The notes under the pieces: generated by a model
Database searches by the model: none
The model's input: the letters and a program-made list of their open reading frames with translations, nothing else
Told to the model about the DNA's origin: nothing
Made by a program: the position numbers and the translations under genes
Part shown: positions 5,617 through 23,983 of the stretch, in pieces
Position numbering within the stretch: the first letter of the stretch is position 1
Layout: each line of letters begins with the position of its first letter
Source of the DNA: a virus
Direction: 5' to 3' (one strand)
Length of the DNA: 24,336 nucleotides
IMG/VR virus record: IMGVR_UViG_3300001720_000014
Location: 1-24,336 of that record

Positions 5617-5951
5617 CAAAACGAATGGCATTAATTGATACATCAAATAATAAAGTGCTTCAAATAATTGTTACTGAAGATGATTGGACAGGTAGTAATT
5701 GGTATGAAACCACTACTAATAATTATGCAAGAATAGGTGGCACTTATGTTAATGGGAAATTTATAGACCCACAACCTTATCCTAGTTGGACTTTAGATGC
5801 TGATGAAAAATGGCAACCTCCAATAGTAGAACCTACTCCCACAGATGTTGAAAAAGCTGCTGGAAAATATTATGTCTGGGATGAATCTTTGTACCAATCA
5901 GATAATACCAAGGGTTGGGTGCTTGGAACATACGAAGAGCATCACAGTTAA
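5613..5951 (+). CDS. Small fibre-associated protein
   Basis: A 112-residue protein that starts in an ATGA overlap with the glycine-rich gene and ends in a TAATG overlap with the oxygenase gene. It is acidic and aromatic: MALIDTSNNKVLQIIVTEDD at the N-terminus, GGTYVNGKFIDPQPYPSWTL in the middle, then a Pro-rich link (WQPPIVEPTPTD) and a YYVWDES segment. The YPSWTLDADxxWxPP pattern is familiar from small proteins beside fibre genes in cyanophages and other marine phages. They are often guessed to be fibre assembly or tip proteins; direct evidence is lacking. Tight coupling to the fibre gene supports that guess. Confidence 0.6.
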   Translation: MTKRMALIDTSNNKVLQIIVTEDDWTGSNWYETTTNNYARIGGTYVNGKFIDPQPYPSWTLDADEKWQPPIVEPTPTDVEKAAGKYYVWDESLYQSDNTKGWVLGTYEEHHS

Positions 5952-6421
5952 TGAAGGTTATTAAAAATTTTTTAGACGAGGAAGAATTTATAAAGTTACA
6001 AGGTATTTTTATGTCAGCCCATTGTTCATATTATTTTCAAACTTGTGTGGCTGATTATGGAGATAAAGATTATATGTTTACTCATACTTTATTTGATAAT
6101 TATAATCCAAACTCAGAGTTATACAAATACACAGAAACATTAATTAAAAAGTTAAATGTGTTTGCTTTGAAACGAATGAGAGTTATGTGTTACCCACGAA
6201 CAGAAAAACTAATAAGACATAAAACCCATGTTGATTACAAAGAAAAACATAAAGGTGCAGTATTTTTTTTAAACACCTGTAATGGTGGACTATATATTGG
6301 AGATAAGTTTATAAAATCAGAAGAAAATACAGTAGTTAAGTTTGATTCTTCAATACCTCACTCAAGCACAAATTGTACTGACGAAAAGGCAAGATTTATA
6401 CTAAATACAAATTATATGTAA
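5951..6421 (+). CDS. 2-oxoglutarate/Fe(II)-dependent oxygenase (prolyl-4-hydroxylase-like)
   Basis: A 156-residue protein; the ATG at 5951 overlaps the previous stop as TAATG and is preferred to an ATG at 5915. The double-stranded beta-helix signature is visible. The Fe(II) ligands are HVD (His93, Asp95) and a distal His137 in SSIPHSST; Arg148 in KARFILN sits where the 2-oxoglutarate-binding basic residue is expected. GGLYIGDKF between them fits the core strand. Length fits the compact phage versions. Such enzymes hydroxylate protein side chains, nucleobases or small molecules using 2-oxoglutarate and O2; the substrate here is unknown. Its position right after the fibre genes suggests virion-protein modification, but host-directed activity is equally open. 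Confidence 0.8.
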   Translation: MKVIKNFLDEEEFIKLQGIFMSAHCSYYFQTCVADYGDKDYMFTHTLFDNYNPNSELYKYTETLIKKLNVFALKRMRVMCYPRTEKLIRHKTHVDYKEKHKGAVFFLNTCNGGLYIGDKFIKSEENTVVKFDSSIPHSSTNCTDEKARFILNTNYM

Positions 6422-6474
6422 ATATGAATACACAAACTTCCAACAAAATAACAAAGGCTTTTTAAGGAAATAAA
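6422..6474 (+). other. Longest gap (53 bases) on the + strand
   Basis: This is the only spacer above about 15 bases between + strand genes. It contains a 13-codon ATG frame (6424-6465) with no sign of being a gene and the Shine-Dalgarno sequence of the next gene. I see no convincing promoter pair or terminator hairpin, though a phage-specific promoter could not be excluded by eye. Confidence 0.6.
6464..6468 (+). promoter_or_regulatory. Shine-Dalgarno AAGGA deciding a GTG start
   Basis: AAGGA lies 6 bases before GTG 6475. No ATG is available nearby in that frame, and the reading MDPLTILAAA matches the usual beginning of this kind of protein, so the GTG is taken as the start. Confidence 0.75.
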
Positions 6475-6975
6475 GTGGACCCGCTTACTATACTAGCAGC
6501 GGCAAATACTGCTTTTACTGTAGTAAAGAAAGTTGCTAAAGCAGCAGATGAGGCTGATGCAGTTTATCAATCTTTATCTAAGTGGGCAGGACATATTAGT
6601 GATTTGCAAGAATGGATGTCTCAGGAGGAAGCCAAACCTTCTATTTTTAAAAAGATTGCCTACAATAAATCAGCAACAGCAGAAGCATTTGATACATTAG
6701 TAGCCAAAAGAAAAATCGAAGAGCAAGAAAAAGAAATAAAAAGTATGTTTTATATTGGAGCATTGAATCATCTAGGTATTAAAGGTTATAAGGAGTTTAT
6801 TCATCAACGTAGAGCGATAAAGAAAAAAAGAGAGAAAGAAGTTTATGAGCAAATTCGTAGGCGTAAAGCCTTCTTCTATAATACTATGATGGGAAGCGCT
6901 ATAACTATAATAGGGACAATTTTAATAAGTATGGTTTGGTATTTAATTGATATGATTAAGGAAGTGAGTAGCTAA
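6475..6975 (+). CDS. Tail-anchored coiled-coil protein in the lysis region
   Basis: A 166-residue protein with a GTG start supported by AAGGA 6 bases upstream. Residues 1-30 are Ala/Val-rich and weakly hydrophobic (LTILAAANTAFTVVKKVAKA). The middle is highly charged and helical, with IEEQEKEIKSMF and a basic RRAIKKKREKEVYEQIRRRK stretch. One clear membrane segment lies near the C-terminus, about residues 138-158 (MGSAITIIGTILISMVWYLI). I recall similar MDPLTxLA-starting proteins in marine phages and cyanophages without assigned function. Directly before a holin-like gene, with which it overlaps by one base (TAATG), a lysis accessory role is plausible, but the topology is not that of a standard inner-membrane spanin, whose anchor is N-terminal. 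Confidence 0.7.
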   Translation: MDPLTILAAANTAFTVVKKVAKAADEADAVYQSLSKWAGHISDLQEWMSQEEAKPSIFKKIAYNKSATAEAFDTLVAKRKIEEQEKEIKSMFYIGALNHLGIKGYKEFIHQRRAIKKKREKEVYEQIRRRKAFFYNTMMGSAITIIGTILISMVWYLIDMIKEVSS

Positions 6976-7430
6976 TGTTAAATTTAATTACAGGATTATT
7001 GCCAGTAGCGGAGAAGGTTTTAGATAAAATTCTTCCTGACCCTGAAGCTAAAGCCAAGGCTATCTTAGAACTACAGAAGCTGGAACAGAGTGGTGAATTG
7101 CGTAAGATAGAGGCTGAACACACTAACACTGCTAGTGCTAGAGAAAGAGAAGTCGCTGTCGTTACGAGTAACGTAGCCCCATTTATAAATAAAATTATCG
7201 TACCTTGCCTTGCAATTTTAATTGTTTTTCTCACATTTGGCATGATGTCAGCAATCTTGTTTATGGATATTGAGTCTGGTAAAAATTATGAGATAAGTTT
7301 ATACATCTTGGGCTTACTCTCAGGAGCATTAATGTCGTGTATTAACTACTACTTTGGCTCCAGTACTGGCTCTAAGGAGAAGAGCAAAGAACTTCAAGAT
7401 ATGTTTAGTAAAAAGGAACCTAAACTATGA
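6975..7430 (+). CDS. Holin-like membrane protein (3TM / GTA-holin type)
   Basis: A 151-residue protein. The N-terminal half is amphipathic and charged: LLPVAEKVLDKILPDPEAKAKA followed by ILELQKLEQSGELRKIEAEH. Two strong hydrophobic segments follow, about residues 70-98 (IIVPCLAILIVFLTFGMM region) and 105-128 (ISLYILGLLSGALMSCINYY). The C-terminus is polar (GSSTGSKEKSKE). The PDPxAKAKAxLEL N-terminal pattern and the Tyr-Tyr-Phe-Gly-Ser-Ser end of the last membrane segment match the holin family known from gene-transfer agents and marine phages (Pfam GTA_holin_3TM, from memory). It would open the inner membrane for the peptidase encoded 125 bases later. It overlaps the next small gene by ATGA. 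Confidence 0.75.
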   Translation: MLNLITGLLPVAEKVLDKILPDPEAKAKAILELQKLEQSGELRKIEAEHTNTASAREREVAVVTSNVAPFINKIIVPCLAILIVFLTFGMMSAILFMDIESGKNYEISLYILGLLSGALMSCINYYFGSSTGSKEKSKELQDMFSKKEPKL

Positions 7431-7555: not shown

Positions 7556-7941
7556 TGAGTGTTGATTGGGGTAAATCTAAATATTTTAAAGCTACTGAGT
7601 TTGTTTGTTCTCACACGGGCAAGTCAGAAATGGATGAAGAATTTATTTTTAAACTAAATCAACTTAGGGATAACTTTGGCAAACCATTAACTATTTCCAG
7701 TGGGTATCGTGACCCAACACACCCTGTTGAAGCTATGAAAAAATCCGCAGGCGCACATTCCACAGGGCAGGCTTGTGATATTCTTATTGAACGAGCAGAT
7801 GCGTTTAAACTTTTGTCCCTAGCTTTTTTAGTAGGTTTTACAGGAATAGGAGTGAGTCAGAAAGGCGGGGCGAGGTTTTTGCACCTAGACACTATTGAAA
7901 GTTCTCCTGCAAGACCGCGTCCAACCATTTGGTCTTATTAA
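7555..7941 (+). CDS. Endolysin: M15-family L-alanyl-D-glutamate or D-Ala-D-Ala peptidase
   Basis: A 128-residue protein matching the compact M15 (VanY/peptidase_M15_3) fold. Visible elements are an N-terminal YFKATEFVCSHTG segment, the SSGYRDP block with Arg52, and the zinc ligands His68 and Asp75 in GAHSTGQACDIL and His110 in RFLHLD. GFTGIGVSQKG precedes the last ligand, as usual in the family. The C-terminus RPRPTIWSY is typical of phage members. No signal peptide is visible, so release to the periplasm would depend on the holin-like protein upstream. It cuts peptide cross-links or stems of peptidoglycan; the exact bond cannot be told from sequence. The next gene starts two bases after its stop. 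Confidence 0.85.
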   Translation: MSVDWGKSKYFKATEFVCSHTGKSEMDEEFIFKLNQLRDNFGKPLTISSGYRDPTHPVEAMKKSAGAHSTGQACDILIERADAFKLLSLAFLVGFTGIGVSQKGGARFLHLDTIESSPARPRPTIWSY

Positions 7942-7942
7942 T

Positions 7943-9814
7943 ATGGCACTACAAAAACTTCAATTTAAAGCAGGCATAAATCAAGATGTCACTAATTACT
8001 CTAATGAGGGCGGTTGGTTTGAATGCGATAAGGTTAGGTTCTTAAATGGTTACCCAGAAAAGATAAAAGGTTGGGAACAAAATGGCACTTATACACTAGA
8101 TGGAACTTGTCGTGCTTTATTCGGTTGGGTTACTTCTTTTACTGATAACTTTTTAGCTATAGGTACAAACAGTAAAGTATATATTGATGTTGGAGAAAAT
8201 TTAAATGACATAACTCCTATAAGAGCTACCTCAGAAGCAAACAATATATTTGCAGCTACTGATGGCTCTTCTACTATTGTTGTAACCTCATCAAGTCATG
8301 GAGCAGTAACTGGAGACTTTGTAACTTTTTCTGGCGCTGTTAGTTTAGGTGGGAATATAACCGCTGCGGCATTAAATCAAAATTATGAGATAACTAAAAT
8401 AGACAGTAATTCTTATTCTATATCCGCAAGAGATACAGATAACAATACAGTTACTGCTAATAGCAGTGACAGTGGAAATGGTGGCACTTCAACTGTGCAA
8501 ACTTTTGAAATAACAGCAGGTAATGGAACTGTTGAATATGGTTATGGTTGGGGAACTAGCACTTGGGGAAGGCTAACTTGGGGTTCTGGTTCTTTACAAC
8601 CTGTTATACTTCCTTTAACTGTTTGGTTTTTTGACAATTTTGATAATGATTTAATAATGAACGTCAATACAGACGGCAAGGGGGCTATTTATTATTGGGC
8701 AAGAGGATCAGTCGTAGACCCTACAAATGTAATATCAACTAGAGCAGTTCTATTATCAAGCCGTTCAAACGCTTCAGATGTTCCTGCTGAAGTGGGTCAG
8801 ATCATGGTTTCTCAAGTAGACAGACATTTACTTGCGTTTGGAGCAACGCCTTTTGGCGGAGGCACTTTCGATCCTTTGTTAATAAGATTTTCAAATCAAG
8901 ATGAACCTGAAAACTTTACCCCGTCTACTCTTAACAGTGCAGGGTTTATTAAAGTCAGTAGTGGGTCAAGAATAGTAACGGCATTTAGAACAAGACAAGA
9001 AATCTTAATATTTACAGATATGTCAGTGCATTCTTTACAGTTTCTTGGAACAACAGATGTTTTTGGCCTTCAGGAACTAGAAGCTAATATATCTATTGCA
9101 AGTCCACGATGTGTTGCTGGGGCAAGTAACATATTATTTTGGATGGGGGCAGATAAATTTTATATGTATAACGGAAAAGTTGATACTCTTCCTTGCACAC
9201 TTAGAGACTTTGTATTTAATAATATTAACTTTGATGCTCTAGCATATGTATATGCAGGCACTGTAGAAGCTCAAAGTGAAGTGTGGTGGTTTTACCCGTC
9301 AAAAAACAGCTTAACAAATGATTCTTATATAGTATATAACTACAAAGAAGGTGTATGGTTTTATGGTAGTTTGAATAGGTCAGCTTGGTTAGACTCTAAT
9401 TTAAGACAGTTTCCACAAGCGGTCGGCGATAATTTTGTTTACAACCATGAAGTGGGTAATGATGCAGATGGTTCAGCGATGTCAGCATTTATAACTTCAT
9501 CTGACTTTGATATTGGGGATGGAGATAAGTTTACCTTAGTTAATAGAATTATCCCTGATGTAAGTTTTACAGGTTCTAATGCTAGTGAGCCTACAGTTAA
9601 GATGACAGTTAAACCTAGAAACTTTCCGGGTAGCACGTATAGTGTAGAGCAAGATAAAAATGTAATTGAGACTGATATAAATGTTTACACTGAACAAGTA
9701 TTTTTAAGAGCTAGAGCAAGACAGATGGGGTTTAAAATATCTTCTGACACTCTTGGTACGACATGGAAGTTAGGTTCTCCTAGATTAGATGGTCGTCCTG
9801 ATGGGAGAAGATAA
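7943..9814 (+). CDS. Large tail-nozzle-like virion protein (P22 gp10 / T7 gp12 type)
   Basis: A 623-residue protein when started at ATG 7943 (MALQKLQFKAGINQDVTNYS), just after the endolysin stop; an in-frame ATG at 7895 would overlap the endolysin gene by 47 bases and is less likely. The N-terminal WFECDKVRFLNGYPEKIKGW block, repeated Trp/Gly-rich strands (LFGWVTSFTDNFLAIGTNSKV, LTVWFFDNFDNDLIMNV) and ILFWMGADKFYMYNGK indicate beta-propeller-like repeats, as in nozzle proteins of short-tailed phages. An insert at about residues 104-190 contains SSHGAVTGDFVTFSG and NYEITKIDSNSYSI. The ending includes FLRARARQMGFKIS and SPRLDGRPDGRR. The nozzle role is inferred from layout and from marine-phage homologues as I remember them. 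Confidence 0.6.
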   Translation: MALQKLQFKAGINQDVTNYSNEGGWFECDKVRFLNGYPEKIKGWEQNGTYTLDGTCRALFGWVTSFTDNFLAIGTNSKVYIDVGENLNDITPIRATSEANNIFAATDGSSTIVVTSSSHGAVTGDFVTFSGAVSLGGNITAAALNQNYEITKIDSNSYSISARDTDNNTVTANSSDSGNGGTSTVQTFEITAGNGTVEYGYGWGTSTWGRLTWGSGSLQPVILPLTVWFFDNFDNDLIMNVNTDGKGAIYYWARGSVVDPTNVISTRAVLLSSRSNASDVPAEVGQIMVSQVDRHLLAFGATPFGGGTFDPLLIRFSNQDEPENFTPSTLNSAGFIKVSSGSRIVTAFRTRQEILIFTDMSVHSLQFLGTTDVFGLQELEANISIASPRCVAGASNILFWMGADKFYMYNGKVDTLPCTLRDFVFNNINFDALAYVYAGTVEAQSEVWWFYPSKNSLTNDSYIVYNYKEGVWFYGSLNRSAWLDSNLRQFPQAVGDNFVYNHEVGNDADGSAMSAFITSSDFDIGDGDKFTLVNRIIPDVSFTGSNASEPTVKMTVKPRNFPGSTYSVEQDKNVIETDINVYTEQVFLRARARQMGFKISSDTLGTTWKLGSPRLDGRPDGRR

Positions 9815-11379: not shown

Positions 11380-11789
11380 TGGATTCTGTTGAGGTTGTTC
11401 CACTTTCTTTAATTCATACTGTGTGGCCTGATGTAGAAAAGTTTTTAAAAGATGGACTATCGTTTTGTGAAGGTGATTATACTGTTGAGCAAGCTAAGGT
11501 GTATATTACAAAAGGGGAATGGATGTTAGTAGTTGCTGTTAGTGAAAACAAATTAATAAAAGGTGCAGCAGCAGTACAAATTTATAATCTACCTAATGAT
11601 AGGGTGGCGTATATAACTACGATAGGCGGTAAAGGTATAGTTAGTCGAGAGTCTTTTGCAAAATTAAAAACATTGTTAAAAAGTTTTGGGGCTACTAAAA
11701 TTCAAGGTGCAGCACGAGAATCTATTGCAAGATTTTGGAGGCGGTTTGATTTTATAGAGCGTTATAAAATTGTTGAGGTAAAAATATGA
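11379..11789 (+). CDS. GNAT-fold-like protein in the internal-protein cluster (T7 gp13-like position)
   Basis: A 136-residue protein with the layout of a small acetyltransferase-type fold. It has an N-terminal helical part with SFCEGDYTVEQAKVYITKGE, strands WMLVVAVSENKLIKGAAAVQ and RVAYITTIGGKG, a helix FAKLKTLLKSFGATKIQG, and a final AARESIARFWRRFDFIERYK block. The usual acetyl-CoA loop (R/QxxGxG/A) is only weakly suggested by GGKGIVSRE, so catalysis is doubtful. T7 internal protein gp13 and its relatives in marine phages have a similar size, layout and position just before the large internal proteins. It overlaps the flanking genes as TAATG and ATGA. Internal virion assembly role inferred. 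Confidence 0.6.
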   Translation: MDSVEVVPLSLIHTVWPDVEKFLKDGLSFCEGDYTVEQAKVYITKGEWMLVVAVSENKLIKGAAAVQIYNLPNDRVAYITTIGGKGIVSRESFAKLKTLLKSFGATKIQGAARESIARFWRRFDFIERYKIVEVKI

Positions 11790-13051
11790 GAAACGCATGG
11801 GATGAAATGTTACCTGAAAGGGCATTTGTAAAACGAGCAGGGCCGGGCAATCGGCCTATGACTTTAGAGGGTGGGCCTAGTGGAGGGCAGCCTACTAGTA
11901 TGAGTCAAACTACTATACCGGAGTACGCTGAACCGTACATGGCCGATATACTAGGAAAAGCAGCAGCACTTTCTGATGTAGAAAAATCTCCGTATCAAGT
12001 ATATGGAGGAGAACGAATTGCTGGGCCTAATGTTGCACAACAAGAAGCTCGTTTAAATGCACAAAATTTACAAATGCCCGGAGGCTTTGATGCGGGAGCA
12101 AGTCTTGCTCAAACTGCTGGACTACAGGCGTTGACAAGTTCGCAATATGATCCAACTTCAACTGCGGTTAGTGGGCCACAACTTACACAATACGGTATGC
12201 AAGGCGCACAGACTGTTTACAATCCTACTCTTGCAGCGCCGGAATTTAGTAGTGAAGAAGTAGTTAAGTACGGTTCTCCGTTTATGCAAGAAGTTGTAGA
12301 ACGTCAAAAGTTAGCTGCAATAGATGATGCTAAACGAACTCAACTTTCTACAAACCTAGCCGCTGCCAGACAAGGAACTTATGGAGGAGCAAGGCAGGCT
12401 TTACTTCAAGGAGAACGAGAAGCTGCATTAGGTGGTCAGCTTGGAGACATTCAAGCACAAGGACTACAATCTGCTTATGAATCAGCACAAGCACAGTTTG
12501 AAAGAGATCGTGCTGCTAAATTAGGAGTACAGGCTCTCGGTGCTGACATAGGTTTAAAAACATCACTTGCAAATTTAGATAATGAGCAACAAGCTAGAGT
12601 ACAAAATCTTGCAGCATCCTTACAAACGCAAGGGTTAGGAGCAAATCAAGCTCTTCAAGCAGCTTTAGCTAATCAAGCTAATGAACAGTTTGGGTCTGAG
12701 ATAGGATTAAAAGGAACACAAGCAGCTACACAATCAGCCGCAGTATTAGGAGATTTAGCTGGTCGTCAAGGTCAAACACAATTAGCAAACATACAGTTTC
12801 AAAATCAAATGGCCGCACAAGCTCAAGCAGAGCGACAAGCTAGGTTAGATATGGCGTATGGAGATTTCCAAACACAACAAGCTGATCCTTATACACGTCT
12901 AGGATTTATGTCTGATCTTCTTCGTGGATCATCTAATCTTGCACAATCCGGGGGACGAGCTATTTATCAACAGCCGCCGTCTGCTATTTCGCAAATTGGT
13001 GGATTGGGGCTATCAGGTTTAGCTCTTCAAAAACTAATGTCAGGAATGTAA
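11786..13051 (+). CDS. Ala/Gln-rich internal (ejection-type) virion protein
   Basis: A 421-residue protein. The N-terminal 90 residues hold IPEYAEPYMADILGKAAAL and YQVYGGERIAGPN, patterns usual for this type. The centre (about residues 160-250) has YGSPFMQEVVERQKLAAIDD, AAARQGTYGGARQALLQGER and LGGQLGDIQAQGLQSAYESA. From there to about 375 the protein is a long, nearly continuous Ala/Gln helix with heptad-like repeats. The C-terminus is a Gly/Leu segment (SQIGGLGLSGLALQKLMSGM) that is hydrophobic enough to touch a membrane. I recognise this architecture from internal proteins of uncultured marine phages, analogous to T7 gp14 or P22 ejection proteins. It starts in an ATGA overlap. Confidence 0.65.
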   Translation: MRNAWDEMLPERAFVKRAGPGNRPMTLEGGPSGGQPTSMSQTTIPEYAEPYMADILGKAAALSDVEKSPYQVYGGERIAGPNVAQQEARLNAQNLQMPGGFDAGASLAQTAGLQALTSSQYDPTSTAVSGPQLTQYGMQGAQTVYNPTLAAPEFSSEEVVKYGSPFMQEVVERQKLAAIDDAKRTQLSTNLAAARQGTYGGARQALLQGEREAALGGQLGDIQAQGLQSAYESAQAQFERDRAAKLGVQALGADIGLKTSLANLDNEQQARVQNLAASLQTQGLGANQALQAALANQANEQFGSEIGLKGTQAATQSAAVLGDLAGRQGQTQLANIQFQNQMAAQAQAERQARLDMAYGDFQTQQADPYTRLGFMSDLLRGSSNLAQSGGRAIYQQPPSAISQIGGLGLSGLALQKLMSGM

Positions 13052-13053
13052 TT

Positions 13054-15390
13054 ATGGCACTCACAATATCTGATCCTAACATCGCAAAGCTCGACTCGTT
13101 AATTAAAAAAGCTGTACCAAAAGGGCCAAAAGGAATACCGTTTTTAAAAAATATGTTACGAGAAATAACTCTTAAGCGTCCACAAGATGTAGGAAGTAAA
13201 AAGTATTTACTGTTAGCAGGAGAGTTGCAAGCTAGAAAAAGCACGGCAGAGAAAATGAAAGGCGCTGGCCCTAAGCCTCCTAGTGTAATGCAGTCTTTAA
13301 CTGCGCCTGCTCCTCAAGATGGGTTAGGTTTAGATATGTCACAGCCTGCTGTTAGAAACTTAGCAGCACAAAATCAAATGGCTACTATTGGGGGCAAACC
13401 TCCTGCAGGTAACAGAGGAGGTATAGTTGCGTTTCAAAATACAGGATATGTAAATTTACCAGAAGACAATTTAAAAAGAATACTTGAACAAGCTCGTGCA
13501 GCCGCAGCACGAGGAGATACTAAATTTAATTACATTGAAGTTTTAGAAAAATTTAAAAAAGCTGGGCGCCCTCTTCCACAAACTCAAGCCTTTCAAAAAA
13601 TTGTGCAAGCTGCTACGAATCAACGCATAGGCGGTATAGGAGCAAGTCCTTTTGATAGAAATCTAAAAATGCCGGGGCCAACTGTAAAAGGTGACCCAAC
13701 TAAATTTCAGCCAAAAAGTGTAGGACAGGGAGGAGAAGTAGATCGTCAAGTAGTTCGTGATCGAAGAGTAGATAGACTTGTGTTAAATAAAGCGGAGCAA
13801 CAAGCAAAAATCAAAGCAGACAAACTCAAAGCAAAAGCAGCTAACAAAGCAGCTAACAAAGCATATTTTGAGTCTGGAAAAAGGTTTCTTCCAAAAGGTG
13901 TTATTGGAAAAAGTCTTGGGCTTGTAAACCCTCTTAGTACCTACGGAAAAGTTCCTAAAGGAGCAGCCGCATTACTTGCTGCAGGGGATGCAGGAGCAGG
14001 AGAAGATGAAATTGTAAAACGTATGCAAGCTATGCAAAATTTTCCAGACTTATATCGTCAACAAAATGTATTAAACCCTCAAGGGGGAATTTCTGCAACA
14101 ACTCCAGTTACTATTCCTGAAATAACAACTCCTACTTTTAGTTTTGGGGCTGTTCCAGATATATACGAAGAGCAAGGGTTTATGCCAGCGGCTAAAGAAG
14201 TTTTTTCGCAAGTTGGAAATATAATGGATAAAGGACTTGCTCCAAAAGTTACACCTGCTGGCAACTTAAGAAATTTTGAAACTCTTTCTAAACTTCCACA
14301 ACCTGTGTATAACGCAATACAAGAAGCTAGATCGTACGGTATGAAACCAGATCAAATAAATTCTTTATTACGTGATGAGACTGGGAATTTTGGAGGATTA
14401 GAAGCTCTACAATCAGCTATATCTGAAATAAAACCACAAGCAACTCCTGTATATCCTTCTTCTATAAAAGAAGAAATTCTTTCTGTAAATCAATCTCCTG
14501 TAGGTGGCCCTCTTGCAAATGGCCGTGGGCTTGTTGCAGATGCCCCTCCACAATCTGATTTATCTATGCCTTCATTAGACAGTTTAAACAATCAACTAGC
14601 TGAACTAGGGTTTAAGAATGATTTTGAAGATCTGAAACCAAAAGAGGTAGGTGATTATGTAGATACTGTTAATCTTGCTATGGAAAAGGCTGGGTATGAT
14701 AAAAATTATTTCGCAGAGGCAAAAACAAAATTAAAAGAAATGCAGGCGCAAACTAAAGCCGAAGGAAAAGAAGGACGTGCTTTACGTTTGTTTGAAATGG
14801 GGTTAGGTATAATGGCTGGAGAATCGCCTAATGCTTTCGTTAATATTGGTAAGGGCGCAGCCCCTGCAGTTAAAGGACTTGCTGAAGATATTAAGTATTA
14901 TCAAAAGATGGACAGAGATTATAACAAAGAAGCACTGAGTCTTGAGAAAGCCTTCCAAACATCCAATAGACAAACGGGCATAGCTGCAATAAACATGAAA
15001 GAAAAAGCACAAGATCGTTTTGACAAAGCTCAACAAGAAAGAAAATTAGCTAAATTAGCATTACAGAAAACAATCATAACAGGCAAGTTTAGTGTAAAGG
15101 CGGCAAAAGAAAGATCAACTTTTGGTGGTCTTGGTCTTGGTCTTGGTAGTGGTCTTAGCGGTTTAAGTGCGAGTAACAGGCTAAATATACAAAGACAAGT
15201 GAAAGATATTCTAATAAAACCGGATCAAAAAATGCATGTAGCTAGGATTATGGGGGTAAAGCCTGAACAGGTAGACGAAGAAATTGCTATGCAGTTTATT
15301 CAACGTACGTTAGGTATGAGCGGTAGTGGCGGTTCATCAGGAGCAAACTTTAGTTATGACCCAAAAACTGACAATCTGTTAAGGAACTAA
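13054..15390 (+). CDS. Large internal virion protein with GGIV motif
   Basis: A 778-residue protein. N-terminal basic region, then KPPSVMQSLTAPAP and a NRGGIVAFQNTGYVNLPEDN block (about residues 120-139). A Lys/Ala-rich helix contains a duplicated AANK. Residues 366-387 carry AVxDxYxxxGFxPAAKEVxSQV, also found in the next protein. The C-terminal third contains LRLFEMGLGIMAGESPNAFV with NIGKGAAPAVKGLAEDIKYY, a conserved-looking block in marine-phage internal proteins, then a helical KEALSLEKAFQ region and a Gly-Leu repeat (GGLGLGLGSGLSG, about 691-703). No enzyme motif is visible. It lies between the Ala/Gln-rich protein and the giant protein, the position of the second internal protein of short-tailed phages (T7 gp15-like), an analogy only. 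Confidence 0.65.
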   Translation: MALTISDPNIAKLDSLIKKAVPKGPKGIPFLKNMLREITLKRPQDVGSKKYLLLAGELQARKSTAEKMKGAGPKPPSVMQSLTAPAPQDGLGLDMSQPAVRNLAAQNQMATIGGKPPAGNRGGIVAFQNTGYVNLPEDNLKRILEQARAAAARGDTKFNYIEVLEKFKKAGRPLPQTQAFQKIVQAATNQRIGGIGASPFDRNLKMPGPTVKGDPTKFQPKSVGQGGEVDRQVVRDRRVDRLVLNKAEQQAKIKADKLKAKAANKAANKAYFESGKRFLPKGVIGKSLGLVNPLSTYGKVPKGAAALLAAGDAGAGEDEIVKRMQAMQNFPDLYRQQNVLNPQGGISATTPVTIPEITTPTFSFGAVPDIYEEQGFMPAAKEVFSQVGNIMDKGLAPKVTPAGNLRNFETLSKLPQPVYNAIQEARSYGMKPDQINSLLRDETGNFGGLEALQSAISEIKPQATPVYPSSIKEEILSVNQSPVGGPLANGRGLVADAPPQSDLSMPSLDSLNNQLAELGFKNDFEDLKPKEVGDYVDTVNLAMEKAGYDKNYFAEAKTKLKEMQAQTKAEGKEGRALRLFEMGLGIMAGESPNAFVNIGKGAAPAVKGLAEDIKYYQKMDRDYNKEALSLEKAFQTSNRQTGIAAINMKEKAQDRFDKAQQERKLAKLALQKTIITGKFSVKAAKERSTFGGLGLGLGSGLSGLSASNRLNIQRQVKDILIKPDQKMHVARIMGVKPEQVDEEIAMQFIQRTLGMSGSGGSSGANFSYDPKTDNLLRN
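13837..13860 (+). repeat. 12-bp tandem duplication (AANK x2)
   Basis: gcagctaacaaa is repeated twice in frame (13837-13848, 13849-13860) within a Lys/Ala-rich helix; a small, recent-looking slippage product. Confidence 0.9.
15127..15144 (+). repeat. 6-bp tandem repeat (Gly-Leu x3)
   Basis: ggtctt is present three times in a row and once more after ggtagt. It encodes the GLGLGL core of a Gly-Leu segment in the C-terminal part of the internal protein. Confidence 0.85.
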
Positions 15391-15391
15391 T

Positions 15392-18300
15392 ATGCCTGTA
15401 GTTCAAATACCAAATGTTGGGCGAGTTAGATTTCCTGACACCATGACGGATGAGGAAATAAAAGAAGCTATTCGTACAAGCCCAGCATTTAAAGCAGCAT
15501 TTCAATCTGAAGAAGATTCACGAGAAGGTGTTGGCCCTGCTGCTAGACGTGGATTAGAAGTTCTTAAATCAGGATTTCAAACAGCGTTTGAATCTGCAAC
15601 AGATGACAAAGATGCAGCAGCTTTAGCAGGATTAAAAAGACAAGAAGAAATTGCCAAACAATTTGCTCCCGGTTCTAATTTAGAAGCTGTTATTGACGCA
15701 TATAAACAAGAGGGTTTTTTACCTGCAGCTAAAGAAGTTGTTAGTCAAGTGCCAACAGCTATTGCAGAACAGTTTCCTAATATTGCAGGTACAGTGGGAG
15801 CCAGTTTTGTAGGAGGTAGAACATTTGGAGCGCCCGGAGCTATAGCTGGAGGATTGTCTTTTGCACTTCCACAACTTTATTCGTCTTTCCTTGAGCGTCA
15901 AGCAGAAGAAGATGTAGCAGCAGGAAGAGATGTAGATGTTGATAGAGGCAAAGCTCTCTTGGCAGCAGCACCGGCTGCAGGTTTAGAGTTAGCAGCTACG
16001 TTTACTGTTTTGGGAAGGGGAGTTATTGGAAGTTTGTTGGGGCCAAAGGTTGAACGGTTATTGGCCGAGGGAGGAAGTAAAGCTATTGATGAAGGAATTA
16101 TATCTTCATTAGCAAAAGGTGGAGCAAGAGGTTTAGCTGTTGAATCAGGAACAGAAGTTGCACAACAAATGATTGAGCGTTATCAAGCAGGGTTGCCGCT
16201 GTCAACTCCTGATGCTGTTCAAGAGTATGGACGTGCTGCGTATGGAGCTGCACTGGTGGGTACACCGCTTGGTGGAGCAGGACGTTACTTTGAAGCTGGA
16301 CGAGATCCTGCTGTTGATACTCCTTCACAAACTCCTGTTGTTGACGAAGCCTTAGTTCAAAGGTCAGATGAAGCACAACCTGACACTGAAACGTCAGAAA
16401 TAGCTAGATATAAACAAAGTCTAAATGCTAACAAAGAACAACTTAAAAAATTAAAACAGTTATTAAAAGATAAAACTTTAGATAAAGATATACGATCTGA
16501 AGCAACTAATCGAATTGATATTTTAGAACAACAAATTAATAGTGATACAGAAACACTTAGAGCTATGGGAGGTTTGCCTAGCTTTGAAGAAGTTCTTGAG
16601 CAACAAACAAAACCTGTTGAAGAACCTACGGTTAAAGAACCTACAGTTAAAGAACCTACGGTTGAAGAACCTACAGTTAAAGAACCTACTGTAGCAGAGC
16701 GTATGGCTGAAGAACCTGCAGCGCCTGTTGTAGAAGAGGATGCTACTAGAGAAGGTTTAAGAAAAGAAGTTGCTTTCTTTGTAGAAGATTTAGAAAGTGC
16801 AGGAATAAATACTGAAGCTATTGATTCAAGTCTACGAGATACATATGACGATCTTGGGCGTCCTGATTACAATAAACAATTAAAAAAATTAGAAGAGCTT
16901 AAAGATAGCACTCAAAAACTTAGAGCTGTAGAAGCTGAAAAACAAATTAAAGATACTCGTGATCTTCGTAATAAATTATCTACAAAGTTTTTAAAAGATT
17001 TTAGCACCGCACAAAAAATAAAAGATAAAAAAATAAAAGATGCAGAAACTGAATCTGTTTTAAAAAATTACTTTGATGAGCAAACTAGTGGCGAGTTTGA
17101 TTACGATATACTTTTTCCTAAAGCAGAGCCAAAACGATTACCGTTTGATTATACAAAAAGATTAGCATCTGCGAATAAAACTATTAACACGATGAATCGT
17201 GAAATTGAGAAAAGAGAAAACCAACGTAAGTTATTTCAAGAAACAGGAAGAGATAAAGAAGCAATATTTAAACTTTCAGATGAGATAAGTGTATTAAGAG
17301 GCAATAGACGTAAAGCTATGGAAGCTATTGCAGATACTGCAGAAACTTCTACTACAACTGCATTTGAAAATTTTAATAGAGATCTTAAAAAAGGGCAACT
17401 TTCTAACGAAGTAGCTAAAGCTCTTGGGCTTAAAGATCTTGAAAAAATACGAGGGAAAACACAACCAGTAACTGCAAAGACAACACCTAGACAATCTGTC
17501 TTTATAGATGCTTATGATAAAAATGTTAAAGAAGCTATTCGCCAAAGAATTAAAACATTAAAATTTAATCAACAACGAAGAGAACTCCCCGGAGCAGAAT
17601 CTTTAATTAACTTTAAAACAGGTAAACTTTTTAAAGAAAAAGGTAATACAGCAATTAAAGAAAATGTACAACTTAGAATACTTAATGAGTTGTTAGCAAC
17701 AGTTCAAACTTCTGCACCCGTACGTTCAGATGCCGCAAGAATTACAGAAGTTGAAAAAATACTTGAATCAAATATTGCTCCTTCAGGCAAAAAACTTACA
17801 GAAGAATTAAAAAAATCATACCAAGAAGAACTTACTAATCTTAAAAGAGATCAACCAGCTCTTGATGCAGGATTAGAGAAAACTTTAACTAGTGTGTCAC
17901 GAGATGCAGAACTAGGTAAAAAACTTAGAGGCGACTTTCCTGTTGATATTGTTGGCGCAAAGGCAGTGACACCTCAAGGCATAGAAAGAGAACGAAGTGC
18001 TGGCGATCTTTCTTTCACTCAGTTTAATGAATTACTTAATGATTTAAGAACTACGACATATCTTGATAGCCCTAATGAAAATAGAAGAGTGGGAGCTAGT
18101 TTTACTCGTGAAGGGTTAATTAAAAAAATTAATACAAACCGTGAAAACTTTTTAAATAGTTTAGTAGATGAAGTTGCTTTGCGTAGGAAAAGAGATAACA
18201 TTAAACTATTAACAAATAACGAAACTACAGAAGTTAGAAATAAAGTTAATGAAATTTTAGATGAAATTTATAATAGACAACTAGCATCTAAAGAAAAAGT

Positions 18301-21300
18301 TCTTGTTACATTACAACCTGCACAAACACGAGGAACTAAATTAATAGCAGAAGCAAAAACTATTTATAAAGATGTAAGACCTCTTGAGCAACGACCGTTT
18401 GGCAATCCTAAACAAGCCTTAGAAGTTTTAACAGAATCAATAAATCAATTAAAAGAAGAAGCTGCAACAAGTAGAAATGTTAGACAAGTATTTGGACTTA
18501 TAGGACAAACGCCAAAAGCTCTACAAGAATTACAAAAAAAAGAAGATGTAAAACCTGTTACAAAAAGACGTCCTTCTAGTGATGTGCCTGAAGGACAATT
18601 AGAATTTGCTTCTTTTAAACAACCCGAAGCACGTAATGTAAAACTTGGTAGACTTCAAAAAGAATTAAAAAAAGTAGTAGATGATAGAACAGATGTTGCT
18701 AGACAAATTTTAGAAATAAAACCATTAACTGAATTTGTTGAACTTGATAAAGGCTTTGACCAAACATTTTTAGTAGAAGCATTAAACAAAAAAACCCAAC
18801 CTTTTATACCAACTTCTCCTATTGGACGAGTGCAAGCTAAACTTAAAGCAGCAGAAGAACAAGTTAATAAACCTGATATTCCTCAAGCAAGAATTAACAA
18901 ATTAAATAAAGACATTGAAAAATATACAAAACAAATTAAAACTTTTGTTGAAGCAGAACTTACTAAATTAGATAAGAAAAAATTTAATATTATTAAAAGA
19001 GAAGTTGCAATAGAAAATCAAATAAATAACTTATCTGATGTTACAAAAGAAGAAAAAGAAGACGCTGTTCGTGAAGCTAAAAAATTAGCTGTAGAACAAT
19101 TAAAAGATAGAGAAAATAAAAAAAATGCTGAAACAAAAAAACTTTTAGCAGAAAGAAAAGAAGCTAAAAAAGTTGCAGCAGAAAAAGCAGAAGCTGCAAA
19201 AGTAAAAGCAGCACCTGAAGAACTTCGTAAGTCTTTACCCGGCAGGAAAATTACTCCTGTAACTAGACAAGCACGAACTGATATTGCAGATGAACTTGAT
19301 CCTAGTGGAAGCTCTAAAATAAAACAAGAAGTGGTACAACTTAGTGATGATTTAGCATATAGAGCTGCATTACAAAGAGATAAAAAGGGAAAATCAGACT
19401 TTAGAAAACAAGCTGACAAAGATAAAGCAGAAAAAATTAAAGCTCTTAAGCCTGAACTTGCAAAAGTAGAAGAAGAAATTACAAATATAGAAAAAGAATT
19501 AGAAGCTCCAAAAATTACAAAAAAATTAAAAGCTAATTTAGAAGATAAGTTAGATAATAAAAAAACTGAAAGAGGTATACTAAAAAATAATTTTCAAGAA
19601 CTTACAAAATCTCCTGTTGCTAGATTTACAATTGCAGAAATAAAAGCTGTTGATAATCTTTCAGGAATGCCAGATTTACTTGAAGCAACTCCTGAATTGA
19701 GAAAAGAAAAACAAGAAGCAGATACTAGAATTAACGCAATAGAAAAAATATTAGAATCAAATGTAGATACTGCAGGCAAAAAACTTACAAATAAATTAAA
19801 GACTCAGTATAAAAAAGAGTTAGCAGATATTAAAAAAACACAAAAAGCATTAGCATTTGTAAGTGAAGATGTAGGAAAGGGAATTGACTTGTTTGGCAAT
19901 CCTGAACAATCAACTGTTACTCCTACAACATTAAGCACTACTGCTATTAGTAAACTTTTTGTTAATCCTGCAAATGTTGATAAAAAAATTCAAGCTGTAG
20001 AAGAAAAATTAATAAGTAAAAAAACAGAACTTAAACAAACCAAAGGAGAAAAAAACAAACAAAAGCGTTTAGACTTAAATGAAGAAATTGAATCGTTAGA
20101 AAACGATCTTACAGACTTAGCTATACTAAGCGAAGCTAAAGATGTTCAACCAAAATTTAATTCTTTAAAAAAGATACTTAAAAATAGATATGCTCAAGCT
20201 AATAATTTAAGAAGCAAATTAAACCTTGGGGCTATTACACGACCTGAAATAGAAGAAACAATAAAAGAGGTTATACGTCTTACTAAGTTTACAAAAGACA
20301 AAACGGTTGGTAAAAATTTTAAAATCGTATCTGAAAATTACGCTAAAAAAAATATTGATTTAGCGTTTGATTTACAAACTTATTTAAACACTTTAGATAG
20401 AATAAAATTTCTTAATAACAATTTACAAAAAGCAAAACGAGATGAATTATCAAATTTAGGAGGTATTCTTCTTGATAAACCAGAACTGCCTAATGTAAAA
20501 AACCTACGAAAACGAACCGTTAAGCCAGACGAATTTCGTAATCCAGATTTTTCTATTAATCAACAAAAAACTTTTACAGACAAACAAGCATTTGATTTAT
20601 TAGGAACTGTTGGATCTTTTATAGAAGGTAAAACTTTTAATAGAGATGGTTTTGATTACAGAATTAGTGAGTCTGCTGCATCAGGAGAACTCGATGTTAA
20701 TGCTGCTGTTGAGCGTTTAAAAACTACTAAAGAAAAAGCAACTGCTGCGGATATAAATTTTAATTACTATAAAACATTCGATGCTTTGCCTGATAATGTA
20801 AAAAAAGATATACAAGCAAAAGGATTAGAGTCGTATAAAAATCAAATTAAAGGTGGCGTTCTACCTGATGGCTCTGTATTTATCGTAGTTGATAATCATT
20901 CTAGTATGATTGATTTAGAAAAAACTTTAGCGCATGAGTTAATTGGACACTACAGCGTTGAGTCTGTTCTAGGCCAGAACGGAATGAAGAAACTTTTAAA
21001 ACAAGTAGAGAATCAATACGGAAATGTTTATACCCTAGCAGATAAATTAAACTTGCAAGGGTTAGAGCATGAAGCCTACGCACTAATGGGTAAGAATGGC
21101 TCTACTGACAACGCTAAAATGTTAATGCTAAAAGAAATAATAGCATTTACTGCAGAGAAAAAAGTTGATGCGTCATTTTTACAAACTGCAAAGCGTTGGT
21201 TGCAAGAGTTAGTAGGCGCTATTAGGGCGGCGTTTAAAAAGATTGGATTGTTAGACGCTAACAAGATGTCAACGTCGGATATATTTTATTTACTTAAACA

Positions 21301-23983
21301 AGCCGAAGCAAACTTTAATGCTGGCAAACCTATGGCAAAAGTAGATGCACGAGGTGATGTTTCTTTTAGAATTACTCCTGCTAAATATAACAATGATGTG
21401 CCTACAGAGTTACAAGGTGCAGCAGAAAGAATTATTGATTTGGGTACTCCTGCTGCACAGAGAATAAAAGCAGAAAATTTAGGACTAGCAGGTCGAGTAA
21501 AATATTTTGATAGGTTTGGTGCTACTGAAGCCCTTATTAAAAAAGGTGCAGAAAAAAATATTATAGATTCTGTTAAAGCAATGGACGTAATGTACTTTAA
21601 TAGAATGTCAGATCAACGAAATAGTTTTATAGCAGAAGTAGCTACATCAGGGCCACTGTCTCTTAAAAAAGTAAAACGTCCTGACAATAAGGAAGAACGC
21701 ATTATTGAATCTACTCCCGGTGCTAGTTTAAAACAGGTAGCTGAAGCATTGCGTGGTGCAAATATTGGAAATGATAAAGCAACAGAAGCTCAGTTTACTC
21801 TATACCTACTAGCAAAACGTGCAAAACGTGTAGGTAAAAAAGTATTAGATTTAGAAGGCAGGATTACAGACGCTGAGTTAGCAGCCGCTGAACAGTTTGG
21901 AGATTCTAATAAGTCATTTCAAAATGCAAGAAAGATTTACAACGAATACAACAAAGGGTTGATTGACTTTTTAATTTCTACTGGCGCTATGGGTAAGAAC
22001 ATAGGTGAGAAATTAAAACTTACAAATGATTATGTGCCTTTCTATCGTTCAGATGGCGATAGCGTTATGTTAAATATACAAGGAGAAAAACCATTTAGAG
22101 TAGGAGATCTTACAAGTCAACCATACCTTAAAGAATTAATAGGAGGTCAGCAAAAAGTATTTACTGTATTTGATTCTGCTTTACGAAATACAAATCTTTT
22201 AACTGACATGGCTTTAAAAAATTTAGCTACTCGAAACACTGCTTTTGTATTTAAAGATTTAGGTGTTGCTACAATATCTAAAGGCACTGGAAAAGCTGAT
22301 CGCTCTACTATTAGATTTAAAATAAATGGAGAAGATTTTTCGGCTGTTGTTAATACTGAAAATAAAGAGATGTTGTTTGGAGACATACCCACAGAGTTAG
22401 TAGTAGAAGGTTTACATGGTATCCAAGCATCTATTCCAACGGCTATTCGATTACTAGGTATGCCTGCTAACTGGCTAAGAAAGTTTGTTACTCGTTCTCC
22501 AGACTACGCAGTCAGACAAATCTATCGTGATTCTATGGCGGCTGTTATGACTACAGGTGCAAACTTTACGCCTGTTGTTGATACGTTAAGAGAGTTAACT
22601 CGTGCAAATAGAGATGGCGCTTTTGGCAGCTTACAAAAACGAGGTGTTATTGGAGGTCAGGTTTTATCTGGAGCCTCTGATGACATGCAAAAAATTCTTT
22701 TGCAAATTACTTCAGGCAAAAGTAATTGGGCATCAAGTCTTGCTAAGTTAGATTCTTTAGCTATGAAAGGTGATGGTGCTACACGAGTGTCAATGTACAA
22801 CTCGTTTTTACAACAAGGACTATCAGAAAGAGAAGCTACGTTTGGTGCGTTAGAAGCTATGAACTTTAGCCGACGTGGGCTATCTCCTACTATGATGCAC
22901 CTTAATACTTTAATTACATTTTTTAATGCAAACATTCAAGGTATTGACGTTATCTACAGAGCATTTAAAGGAGACATGCCAGCTTCTCAAAGACTAAAAG
23001 TTAAAAGAAAACTGTACTCACGTTTAATTATGATGGCTGCTATGACTCTTTCATACACTCAGATGATGGAAGATGAAGATCTTTACAAAGATGCTACTCC
23101 TGCACAACGTCTTAGTAATTGGTTTATTCCTATAGGGGGTACTGCGTTACGAGTACCTATTCCATTTGAAGTTGGATTCATTGGTAAAGCTCTTCCTGAA
23201 GGTGTGTACAACATGGCGTTCTCTGATAGAGATGCGTCCAAAACTTTAAAAGAATTATATGACATGTTCTTACGAAGCATGCCTTTAGTTAATCCGGGCG
23301 CAGGATTAATTCCAGTACCAGACTTGCCAACAGGGGTAAAACCTTTTATAGAACTTGCTACAAATTATTCTTTCTTTACGCAGGCGCCGATTGAAAGCCC
23401 TCGTATGAAAACTTTAATTCCGTCTGAAAGATATTCTTCATCTACTCCAGAAGCTCTTAAACAAGCAGGACAATTAACTGAGGTGTTGGGAGTTTCTCCT
23501 ATTCAAATTGAAACTTTATTTCGTGGGTTTACTGGGGGGTTAGGAATAAGTTTATTAAAACTATTAAACCCTGTGCTTGAAAAAGATATTATAAAACCGG
23601 ATGGCTCTATTGCTAATGCTCCTTTTATTGGAGGATTATTTCAACCAGATAGTGCTGGCGGTATAGTTAACGGAGCATATCAAACTGCAATAGAAACTGA
23701 CAAAATTGTTAAGACCTATAAAAAATTAATAGACGAAGGTAGAGATAAAGAAGCATTTAAGTTTTATAAAGATAACGAAGTAGATTATTTACTAGGAAAA
23801 GCAGGGGCTGTGTTTAGAAAAAGCGCAGGGGAGATACAAAAAGAAATTAGACGAGTTAGAGAAGACCCTGAGTTACCTAAAGAACAAAAAGAACGCGACT
23901 TAAAAGATCTAAAAAAATTATTAAAAGATTACGCTAATTATTATCAACAAAGTAAAAAAGAACCCCTAGCAATTGATTTTTAA
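15392..23983 (+). CDS. Giant 2863-residue internal/ejection polyvalent protein with HExxH metallopeptidase motif
   Basis: The largest gene here. It opens with VGRVRFPDTMTDEEIKEAIR, a start familiar from large phage virion proteins. Residues 99-120 carry the motif shared with the preceding protein. About 125-300 are Gly/Ala-rich hydrophobic segments able to meet a membrane. At 411-435 lies a five-fold EPTV(K/E/A) linker. From about 450 to 1700 the protein is Lys/Glu-rich helix, with a 42-residue module at 783-824 repeated at 1446-1487. A zincin motif follows: LAHELIGHYSVE with His1848, Glu1849 and His1852, and EHEAYALMG, where Glu1894 is a likely third ligand. The C-terminal third has NDYVPFYRSDGD, VTRSPDYAVRQIYRDSM (near 2366) and MNFSRRGLSPTMMHLNTLIT (near 2490). 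These are patterns of LPD38-type domains in large polyvalent phage proteins. It is probably ejected with the DNA, as T7 gp16 is; the peptidase target is unknown. Confidence 0.75.
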   Translation: MPVVQIPNVGRVRFPDTMTDEEIKEAIRTSPAFKAAFQSEEDSREGVGPAARRGLEVLKSGFQTAFESATDDKDAAALAGLKRQEEIAKQFAPGSNLEAVIDAYKQEGFLPAAKEVVSQVPTAIAEQFPNIAGTVGASFVGGRTFGAPGAIAGGLSFALPQLYSSFLERQAEEDVAAGRDVDVDRGKALLAAAPAAGLELAATFTVLGRGVIGSLLGPKVERLLAEGGSKAIDEGIISSLAKGGARGLAVESGTEVAQQMIERYQAGLPLSTPDAVQEYGRAAYGAALVGTPLGGAGRYFEAGRDPAVDTPSQTPVVDEALVQRSDEAQPDTETSEIARYKQSLNANKEQLKKLKQLLKDKTLDKDIRSEATNRIDILEQQINSDTETLRAMGGLPSFEEVLEQQTKPVEEPTVKEPTVKEPTVEEPTVKEPTVAERMAEEPAAPVVEEDATREGLRKEVAFFVEDLESAGINTEAIDSSLRDTYDDLGRPDYNKQLKKLEELKDSTQKLRAVEAEKQIKDTRDLRNKLSTKFLKDFSTAQKIKDKKIKDAETESVLKNYFDEQTSGEFDYDILFPKAEPKRLPFDYTKRLASANKTINTMNREIEKRENQRKLFQETGRDKEAIFKLSDEISVLRGNRRKAMEAIADTAETSTTTAFENFNRDLKKGQLSNEVAKALGLKDLEKIRGKTQPVTAKTTPRQSVFIDAYDKNVKEAIRQRIKTLKFNQQRRELPGAESLINFKTGKLFKEKGNTAIKENVQLRILNELLATVQTSAPVRSDAARITEVEKILESNIAPSGKKLTEELKKSYQEELTNLKRDQPALDAGLEKTLTSVSRDAELGKKLRGDFPVDIVGAKAVTPQGIERERSAGDLSFTQFNELLNDLRTTTYLDSPNENRRVGASFTREGLIKKINTNRENFLNSLVDEVALRRKRDNIKLLTNNETTEVRNKVNEILDEIYNRQLASKEKVLVTLQPAQTRGTKLIAEAKTIYKDVRPLEQRPFGNPKQALEVLTESINQLKEEAATSRNVRQVFGLIGQTPKALQELQKKEDVKPVTKRRPSSDVPEGQLEFASFKQPEARNVKLGRLQKELKKVVDDRTDVARQILEIKPLTEFVELDKGFDQTFLVEALNKKTQPFIPTSPIGRVQAKLKAAEEQVNKPDIPQARINKLNKDIEKYTKQIKTFVEAELTKLDKKKFNIIKREVAIENQINNLSDVTKEEKEDAVREAKKLAVEQLKDRENKKNAETKKLLAERKEAKKVAAEKAEAAKVKAAPEELRKSLPGRKITPVTRQARTDIADELDPSGSSKIKQEVVQLSDDLAYRAALQRDKKGKSDFRKQADKDKAEKIKALKPELAKVEEEITNIEKELEAPKITKKLKANLEDKLDNKKTERGILKNNFQELTKSPVARFTIAEIKAVDNLSGMPDLLEATPELRKEKQEADTRINAIEKILESNVDTAGKKLTNKLKTQYKKELADIKKTQKALAFVSEDVGKGIDLFGNPEQSTVTPTTLSTTAISKLFVNPANVDKKIQAVEEKLISKKTELKQTKGEKNKQKRLDLNEEIESLENDLTDLAILSEAKDVQPKFNSLKKILKNRYAQANNLRSKLNLGAITRPEIEETIKEVIRLTKFTKDKTVGKNFKIVSENYAKKNIDLAFDLQTYLNTLDRIKFLNNNLQKAKRDELSNLGGILLDKPELPNVKNLRKRTVKPDEFRNPDFSINQQKTFTDKQAFDLLGTVGSFIEGKTFNRDGFDYRISESAASGELDVNAAVERLKTTKEKATAADINFNYYKTFDALPDNVKKDIQAKGLESYKNQIKGGVLPDGSVFIVVDNHSSMIDLEKTLAHELIGHYSVESVLGQNGMKKLLKQVENQYGNVYTLADKLNLQGLEHEAYALMGKNGSTDNAKMLMLKEIIAFTAEKKVDASFLQTAKRWLQELVGAIRAAFKKIGLLDANKMSTSDIFYLLKQAEANFNAGKPMAKVDARGDVSFRITPAKYNNDVPTELQGAAERIIDLGTPAAQRIKAENLGLAGRVKYFDRFGATEALIKKGAEKNIIDSVKAMDVMYFNRMSDQRNSFIAEVATSGPLSLKKVKRPDNKEERIIESTPGASLKQVAEALRGANIGNDKATEAQFTLYLLAKRAKRVGKKVLDLEGRITDAELAAAEQFGDSNKSFQNARKIYNEYNKGLIDFLISTGAMGKNIGEKLKLTNDYVPFYRSDGDSVMLNIQGEKPFRVGDLTSQPYLKELIGGQQKVFTVFDSALRNTNLLTDMALKNLATRNTAFVFKDLGVATISKGTGKADRSTIRFKINGEDFSAVVNTENKEMLFGDIPTELVVEGLHGIQASIPTAIRLLGMPANWLRKFVTRSPDYAVRQIYRDSMAAVMTTGANFTPVVDTLRELTRANRDGAFGSLQKRGVIGGQVLSGASDDMQKILLQITSGKSNWASSLAKLDSLAMKGDGATRVSMYNSFLQQGLSEREATFGALEAMNFSRRGLSPTMMHLNTLITFFNANIQGIDVIYRAFKGDMPASQRLKVKRKLYSRLIMMAAMTLSYTQMMEDEDLYKDATPAQRLSNWFIPIGGTALRVPIPFEVGFIGKALPEGVYNMAFSDRDASKTLKELYDMFLRSMPLVNPGAGLIPVPDLPTGVKPFIELATNYSFFTQAPIESPRMKTLIPSERYSSSTPEALKQAGQLTEVLGVSPIQIETLFRGFTGGLGISLLKLLNPVLEKDIIKPDGSIANAPFIGGLFQPDSAGGIVNGAYQTAIETDKIVKTYKKLIDEGRDKEAFKFYKDNEVDYLLGKAGAVFRKSAGEIQKEIRRVREDPELPKEQKERDLKDLKKLLKDYANYYQQSKKEPLAIDF
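15686..15751 (+). other. Shared 22-residue motif in the giant protein
   Basis: This stretch encodes AVIDAYKQEGFLPAAKEV plus VSQV (residues 99-120). The preceding gene encodes AVPDIYEEQGFMPAAKEV plus FSQV at 14149-14214. Fifteen of 22 positions are identical. Confidence 0.85.
16622..16696 (+). repeat. 15-bp tandem repeat, five units (EPTV[K/E/A])
   Basis: Five in-frame units of the type gaacctacggttaaa start at 16622, 16637, 16652, 16667 and 16682. They differ mainly at the third base of the Thr codon and in the last codon (Lys, Lys, Glu, Lys, Ala). They form an extended charged Pro linker between the hydrophobic N-terminal part and the helical body of the giant protein. Confidence 0.95.
17738..17863 (+). 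repeat. Internal module A of the giant protein
   Basis: Encodes residues 783-824, including RITEVEKILESN and GKKLTEELKKSY. It matches the stretch 19727-19852 at 23 of 42 residues without gaps, including the 15-base identity ggcaaaaaacttaca. Confidence 0.8.
19727..19852 (+). repeat. Internal module B of the giant protein
   Basis: Encodes residues 1446-1487, including RINAIEKILESN and GKKLTNKLKTQY. It is the second copy of module A, 663 residues further on, inside the same Lys/Glu-rich helical region. Confidence 0.8.

Follow-up and report, generated by a model that had tools for sequence, protein, structure and literature searches.

The virion operon of a short-tailed phage closes with a giant gene, which raises the question of why its product carries a zincin-like domain and on what substrate such a domain might act. 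The stretch of DNA that was analyzed, referred to as the window, comprises 24,336 bases out of a 32,176-base virus record, and a second record of 43,995 bp, from the same or a nearly identical virus, encodes an identical giant. The giant is an LPD38-type polyvalent protein, probably the largest ejection protein of its phage, and belongs to a class that has already been described and is widespread.

Gene neighborhood of the giant

15392..23983, + strand: giant ejection-type polyvalent protein, 2863 aa (single ORF; identical protein in the second record)
13054..15390, + strand: mosaic ejection-type protein, 778 aa, immediately before the giant gene (in several relatives, an SLT transglycosylase domain is found in this gene)
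11786..13051, + strand: PHROG 4287 “DNA ejection protein,” 421 aa (E=1.4e-9)

The ORF of the giant is uninterrupted from its ATG at 15392 to its stop at 23983, and the 2863-residue protein proposed in the first-pass annotation is thus an intact one that recurs unchanged in the second record. In the upstream part of the virion operon, which is covered by the 43,995-bp record, terminase, portal, and major head protein are encoded in that order; the window has SU10-type adaptor proteins, a virion structural protein, the “DNA ejection protein,” the 778-aa protein, and the giant as the last gene of the operon, after which replication genes follow on the opposite strand. This is the gene layout of a short-tailed phage. 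The assignment of the giant to the ejection-type proteins, made at first from the sequence alone, is upheld by its position after short-tail and ejection genes, by its LPD38 domain, and by a homolog detected in virions, gp69 of phage JC1. A search of genome contigs for prophage relatives, sought as a clue to the host, found none.

Two conserved parts and a fast-evolving middle

Comparison with 12 close relatives revealed two large conserved blocks in the giant, residues 1-300 and 1750-2840, separated by a fast-evolving Lys/Glu-rich region.

15392..16381, + strand: residues 1-330, Gly/Ala-rich hydrophobic N-terminal module (blocks of 32-46% identity to relatives L017, L021, L022, and L026; conservation profile; hydropathy)
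16382..20566, + strand: residues 331-1725, fast-evolving Lys/Glu-rich middle (composition, conservation profile, Pfam/PHROG scans)
18011..18460, + strand: residues 874-1023, conserved block within the middle, its end formed by RPLEQRPFGNPKQALEVL and a short helix (matched locally in L017, L022, and L062)

Residues 100-300 contain 15% Gly and 17% Ala, and the hydropathy averaged over 19 residues reaches its N-terminal maximum of 1.67 at residues 189-207, so composition and hydropathy agree with the glycine-rich hydrophobic segments that had been noticed near the N terminus. The module of residues 1-330 is possibly the membrane-inserting part of the protein. The middle, residues 331-1725, is poor in Pro and Gly and contains 24% Lys plus Glu, a proportion that rises to 33% at residues 1190-1400, and neither Pfam nor PHROG recognized an enzyme in it. 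A Lys/Glu-rich tract is therefore present as first described, but a very long, continuous helix is not borne out, because the longest run free of Pro and Gly extends over only 110 residues (1165-1274).

Two smaller observations concern this region. An island at window positions 18350-18460 (residues about 987-1023), which holds RPLEQRPFGNPKQALEVL, is kept in L017, L022, and L062, while its surroundings are much less conserved; one Pseudomonas phage relative is annotated as a “PLxRFG domain-containing protein.” Two similar copies of ~43 residues, RITEVEKILESNIAPSGKKLTEELKKSYQEELTNLKRDQPAL and RINAIEKILESNVDTAGKKLTNKLKTQYKKELADIKKTQKAL, lie at 17735-17863 and 19724-19852 (residues about 782-824 and 1445-1487) in the Lys/Glu-rich region and probably represent an internal duplication.

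The zincin-like domain

20753..21337, + strand: residues 1788-1982, HExxxH zincin-like domain (AlphaFold2 model; family alignment of 43)
20933..20950, + strand: H1848-E1849-L-I-G-H1853, predicted zinc ligands and catalytic Glu (alignments)
21134..21136, + strand: E1915, predicted third zinc ligand (alignments, including relatives collected independently of the motif)

The metallopeptidase motif LAHELIGHYSVE, from which a zincin had been proposed, is present, but its second His is residue 1853 and not 1852, which is Gly, and the motif therefore has the form HExxxH (HELIGH). Such a HEXXXH form was described in 2017 for one set of polyvalent-protein zincins (Iyer et al., PMC5512222). The giant has 6 His in its 2863 residues, and the chance expectation of an HExxxH motif in it is about 0.001. 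H1848, E1849, H1853, A1918, and E1915, the last of which lies in LKEIIAFTAE, are invariant in all 44 aligned domains. That alignment was collected using the motif, and conservation was retested on relatives gathered by the C-terminal module alone, where the same five residues, together with E1922, are kept in 30/30 members of the subfamily. Glu1894, which had been put forward as the third ligand, gives way to E1915, since its position is occupied by Glu in only 3 of the 44 relatives.

Modeled in isolation by AlphaFold2 (pLDDT 85.7, pTM 0.76), the domain consists of strands, a motif helix at model positions 52-89, and a later helix at positions 118-135 that carries E1915 (model position 128). 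A motif helix preceded by a sheet, with a Glu in a later helix, agrees with the polyvalent HEXXXH MPTase domain as described in the text, not the alignment, of PMC5512222, and this order of secondary structure fits the zincin-type domain that had been suspected. A comparison of the model with the PDB gave no significant fold match, and the N4 vRNAP entry 9pnt (E=4.8) was not used as evidence; its best matches in BFVD are mainly large phage proteins, several of which are named polyvalent. The zincin profile matched PDB sequences only at chance level, e.g., “HEVIGHFG” of ribosomal protein S5, and Pfam searches with 43 members of the family gave only weak, scattered matches, some of them to zincin families.

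Metallopeptidase activity is predicted for the domain: H1848, H1853, and E1915 would bind zinc and E1849 would act as the catalytic base. The strict retention of the presumed catalytic Glu and ligands suggests catalysis. A variable spacing of the motif has a parallel in DPP III (M49), whose zinc site can be built from either a hexa- or a pentapeptide motif (PMC5805324). DPP III shares a local pattern with the giant, HExxGH plus a second ExxA motif, but the zincin domain of the giant is far smaller, and its assignment to M49 was rejected because Pfam and PDB profile searches gave no M49 match.

The C-terminal module

21389..23896, + strand: residues 2000-2835, C-terminal module, conserved and largely helical (close clade, 36-46% identity; tblastn; PHROG 9854, E=6e-41; model)
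23078..23626, + strand: residues 2563-2745, LPD38 (PF18857) (108.7 bits, cut-off 27, E=5.1e-31)

The structure model predicts a mostly helical module, and the score of its LPD38 domain far exceeds the curated gathering score of 27 for PF18857. The LPD38-like blocks reported earlier in the C-terminal third are thus confirmed in kind, although they lie further toward the C terminus than the suggested residues 2330-2640. By tblastn, a block corresponding to residues 2078-2860 is common to 50 phage records, and homology at 23-28% identity, over as much as about 700 aa, extends to phages of many hosts, i.e., Vibrio, Bacillus, Pelagibacter, Escherichia, Aeromonas, Achromobacter, Shewanella, and cyanobacteria; a motif scan confirmed at least 550 relatives in IMG/VR. 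In HTVC204P and HTVC034P, the LPD38 protein sits between the internal-virion genes and the tail fibre. The model of the whole C-terminal part had no match in the PDB at E<=0.001.

Retention and exchange of the zincin

Of 60 distinct long-clade proteins that were gathered through their C-terminal module only, 59 contain a zincin, and the lone protein without it is a 599-aa ORF that is probably truncated. Three types occupy the slot, HExxxH in 30 proteins, HExxH in 17, and HEVG[AV]H in 12, of which only the HExxxH count is free of a choice by motif, the profiles of the other two having been built from motif-bearing members. The HExxH motif is kept in 18/18 members of its type, a set chosen partly by that motif. 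The zincin mostly lies 305-350 aa before the C-terminal module, while the HEVG[AV]H type is often found further upstream. Profile comparison links the HExxxH and HEVG[AV]H types at 97%, but the HExxH type to them at a far lower 53%, and a profile search detected the zincin in the giant, in PTXU04, and in ARM81mr. Mapped on the module tree, the three types require no fewer than 14 switches, compared with a possible minimum of 2; if only well-supported branches are considered, 11 changes are still needed for the HExxxH type. Taken together, this retention and switching indicate, as far as sequences can tell, that the zincin is exchanged for another subfamily and not lost. Long-clade giants retain it across phage hosts as different as Vibrio and Burkholderia, whereas their remaining N-terminal part changes repeatedly, with helicase, methylase, InPase, and ParB-type domains that come and go among the relatives.

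A zincin was found in 0/56 proteins shorter than 1600 aa and in 71/72 of those of 2000 aa or more. The short LPD38 proteins (<1600 aa) belong mostly to one clade, which includes Pelagibacter phages, and the link between length and zincin was not accepted as independent evidence because it reflects mostly one phylogenetic split (independent-pairs test, 4 vs 1, p=0.375).

Comparison with known giant phage proteins

The closest experimental counterpart is JC1 gp69 of a Burkholderia phage, a Lessievirus “DarB-like” giant homologous to Bcep22 gp75, which has the same zincin family (residues 3435-3566, E=5e-11) and the same C-terminal module (E=2e-45) in the same order. It was identified by 51 unique peptides in virions purified through CsCl and has an N-terminal LT-like domain (PMC9144972). 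It differs from our giant in its length of 4515 aa, in its additional LT-like, methylase/helicase, and LPD3 domains, and in its motif, HEAFH, which is one residue shorter and thus represents a deletion to HExxH within the giant's own zincin family.

The phage-type polyvalent proteins are likewise very large, multidomain, encoded near virion genes, and equipped with HEXXXH zincins and LPD38, a domain listed as phage-only (PMC5512222). The giant combines zincin and LPD38 in 2863 aa and follows the virion genes, but, unlike those proteins, it has the zincin as its only recognized enzyme, and about half of its chain is fast-evolving and rich in Lys and Glu.

In coliphage N4, the vRNAP (gp50) consists of a membrane-inserting NTD, the RNA polymerase cargo, C1 with an HExxH motif, and a large helical C2 (PMC12633501), and the order of membrane NTD, linker, cargo, zincin C1, and helical C2 is the same as in the giant. 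C1 matches the HExxH subfamily of the LPD38-giant slot (hhalign probability 94%, E=1e-7). The giant is nevertheless no member of the N4 vRNAP family, because it has no RNAP domain and C2 is without profile similarity to the LPD38 module, whose candidacy as a C2 homolog was rejected at an hhalign probability of 0.2%; the HExxH motif of N4 also differs from the HExxxH of the giant. In open-access full text, we found no earlier statement of a near-obligate, exchangeable zincin slot or of its link to N4 C1.

With T7 gp16 and P22 gp16, the giant likely shares its role and its genome position as the largest and last ejection-type protein. T7 gp16 has an N-terminal transglycosylase, which the giant lacks, and neither profile searches nor Foldseek matched the giant to PDB chains, so membership in the T7 gp16 family is not indicated.

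Proposed role of the zincin

We tentatively regard an ejected giant whose zincin acts mainly on a phage-made substrate as the best explanation of these findings. In the course of events that we infer, from packaging and membrane topology to metal binding, catalysis, and substrate, the giant would probably be packaged in the head and pass through the tail ahead of the DNA. Its hydrophobic N terminus would insert in the inner membrane, while the C-terminal zincin and the helical LPD38 module, by analogy with N4 vRNAP, would face the cytoplasm. The zincin might then cut the giant itself or co-packaged ejection proteins, either during assembly or after entry, and the cleavage would free the upstream part of the giant. 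If the zincin processes the giant in this way, it would explain how a very large multidomain cargo is unpacked once it has passed a narrow tail. A phage-made substrate is favored because the zincin is fixed in place, replaced when lost, and independent of the host, while the N-terminal enzymes are not, and replacement of the function while the N-terminal cargo differs was counted in the same direction. To our knowledge, neither cleavage sites nor processing products nor protease assays have been reported for LPD38 giants, which counts against a phage-made substrate. P1 DdrB, which carries an MPTase domain and is cleaved before packaging (PMC5512222), may serve as a precedent by analogy, while its HExxH motif (HELGH) does not match the zincin family profile of the giant. 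The main counterevidence to a phage-made substrate is N4 vRNAP, which is packaged unprocessed (PMC5512222) and was purified without degradation (PMC12633501).

The same comparison lends some plausibility to a structural or regulatory zincin, which would bind metal but contribute to the C-terminal hub chiefly through folding, anchoring, or autoinhibition, without relevant proteolysis. N4 vRNAP, with the same order of parts and a C1 that matches one zincin subfamily of the slot, stays intact, and its CTD inhibits its polymerase, slowing transcription (PMC12633501). We nevertheless consider such a role somewhat unlikely, given the retention of the catalytic Glu and ligands throughout the HExxxH members and of HExxH in its own, partly motif-chosen set; an enzyme would also tolerate swapping among subfamilies of little sequence similarity more readily than would a structural part that has to fit its surroundings.

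An unlikely reading is the one offered at first, in which the zincin is a delivered effector protease that cuts a host defense, regulatory, or envelope protein after ejection. Its catalytic residues are invariant, the zincin is the sole recognizable enzyme in the giant, so that no further enzyme is recognized that could be set free, and effector roles, like self-processing, have been proposed for polyvalent MPTase domains (PMC5512222). An effector would not be expected to stay fixed in position across very different hosts and to be replaced by other zincins while the N-terminal domains come and go. A universal host target would also account for the retention, but retention and swapping hint at a routine phage job over an attack on one host target. 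In open-access full text, no test of either self-processing or an effector role was found for this class.

A broader extension of the self-processing idea is that LPD38 giants and N4 vRNAP represent one general carrier, composed of a membrane N terminus, exchangeable cargo, an obligate zincin, and a helical cytoplasmic hub, in which the zincin would be an essential ejection-stage protease acting on the carrier itself, replaced but never lost; we consider this doubtful.

That the zincin takes over from an absent transglycosylase and opens a passage for DNA by cutting stem peptides of peptidoglycan or a protein of the envelope is highly improbable despite the lack of an SLT domain, and hence of an SLT-bearing ejection protein, in the 44-kb record of this virus and of any recognized cell-wall hydrolase among the window proteins scanned, because relatives carry both, either in one chain, as in JC1 gp69, or as an SLT domain encoded directly upstream of a zincin-bearing giant in 5/50 related records (L074, L076, L082, L088, and L111). 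The absence of SLT here, taken at first to mean a zincin in place of a transglycosylase, is one state of a mosaic and no exchange for the zincin.

Other observations on the locus

Between the tail-type and virion genes, window positions 5915-7430 contain short ORFs, one of which has a weak GTA_holin_3TM match (E=0.001), and these are possibly lysis genes. A separate 100-aa SprT/WLM-like HExxH protein (HEITHAIL) is encoded by the same virus at 7704-8006 (- strand) of record L002, where it adjoins polymerase-like and RecB-like genes. The first 135 residues of the 778-aa upstream protein (13054-13458) are 91-93% identical in relatives L024 and L025, whose giants are only about 37% identical to the 2863-aa giant, and this disparity between the sequences points to a recent module exchange.
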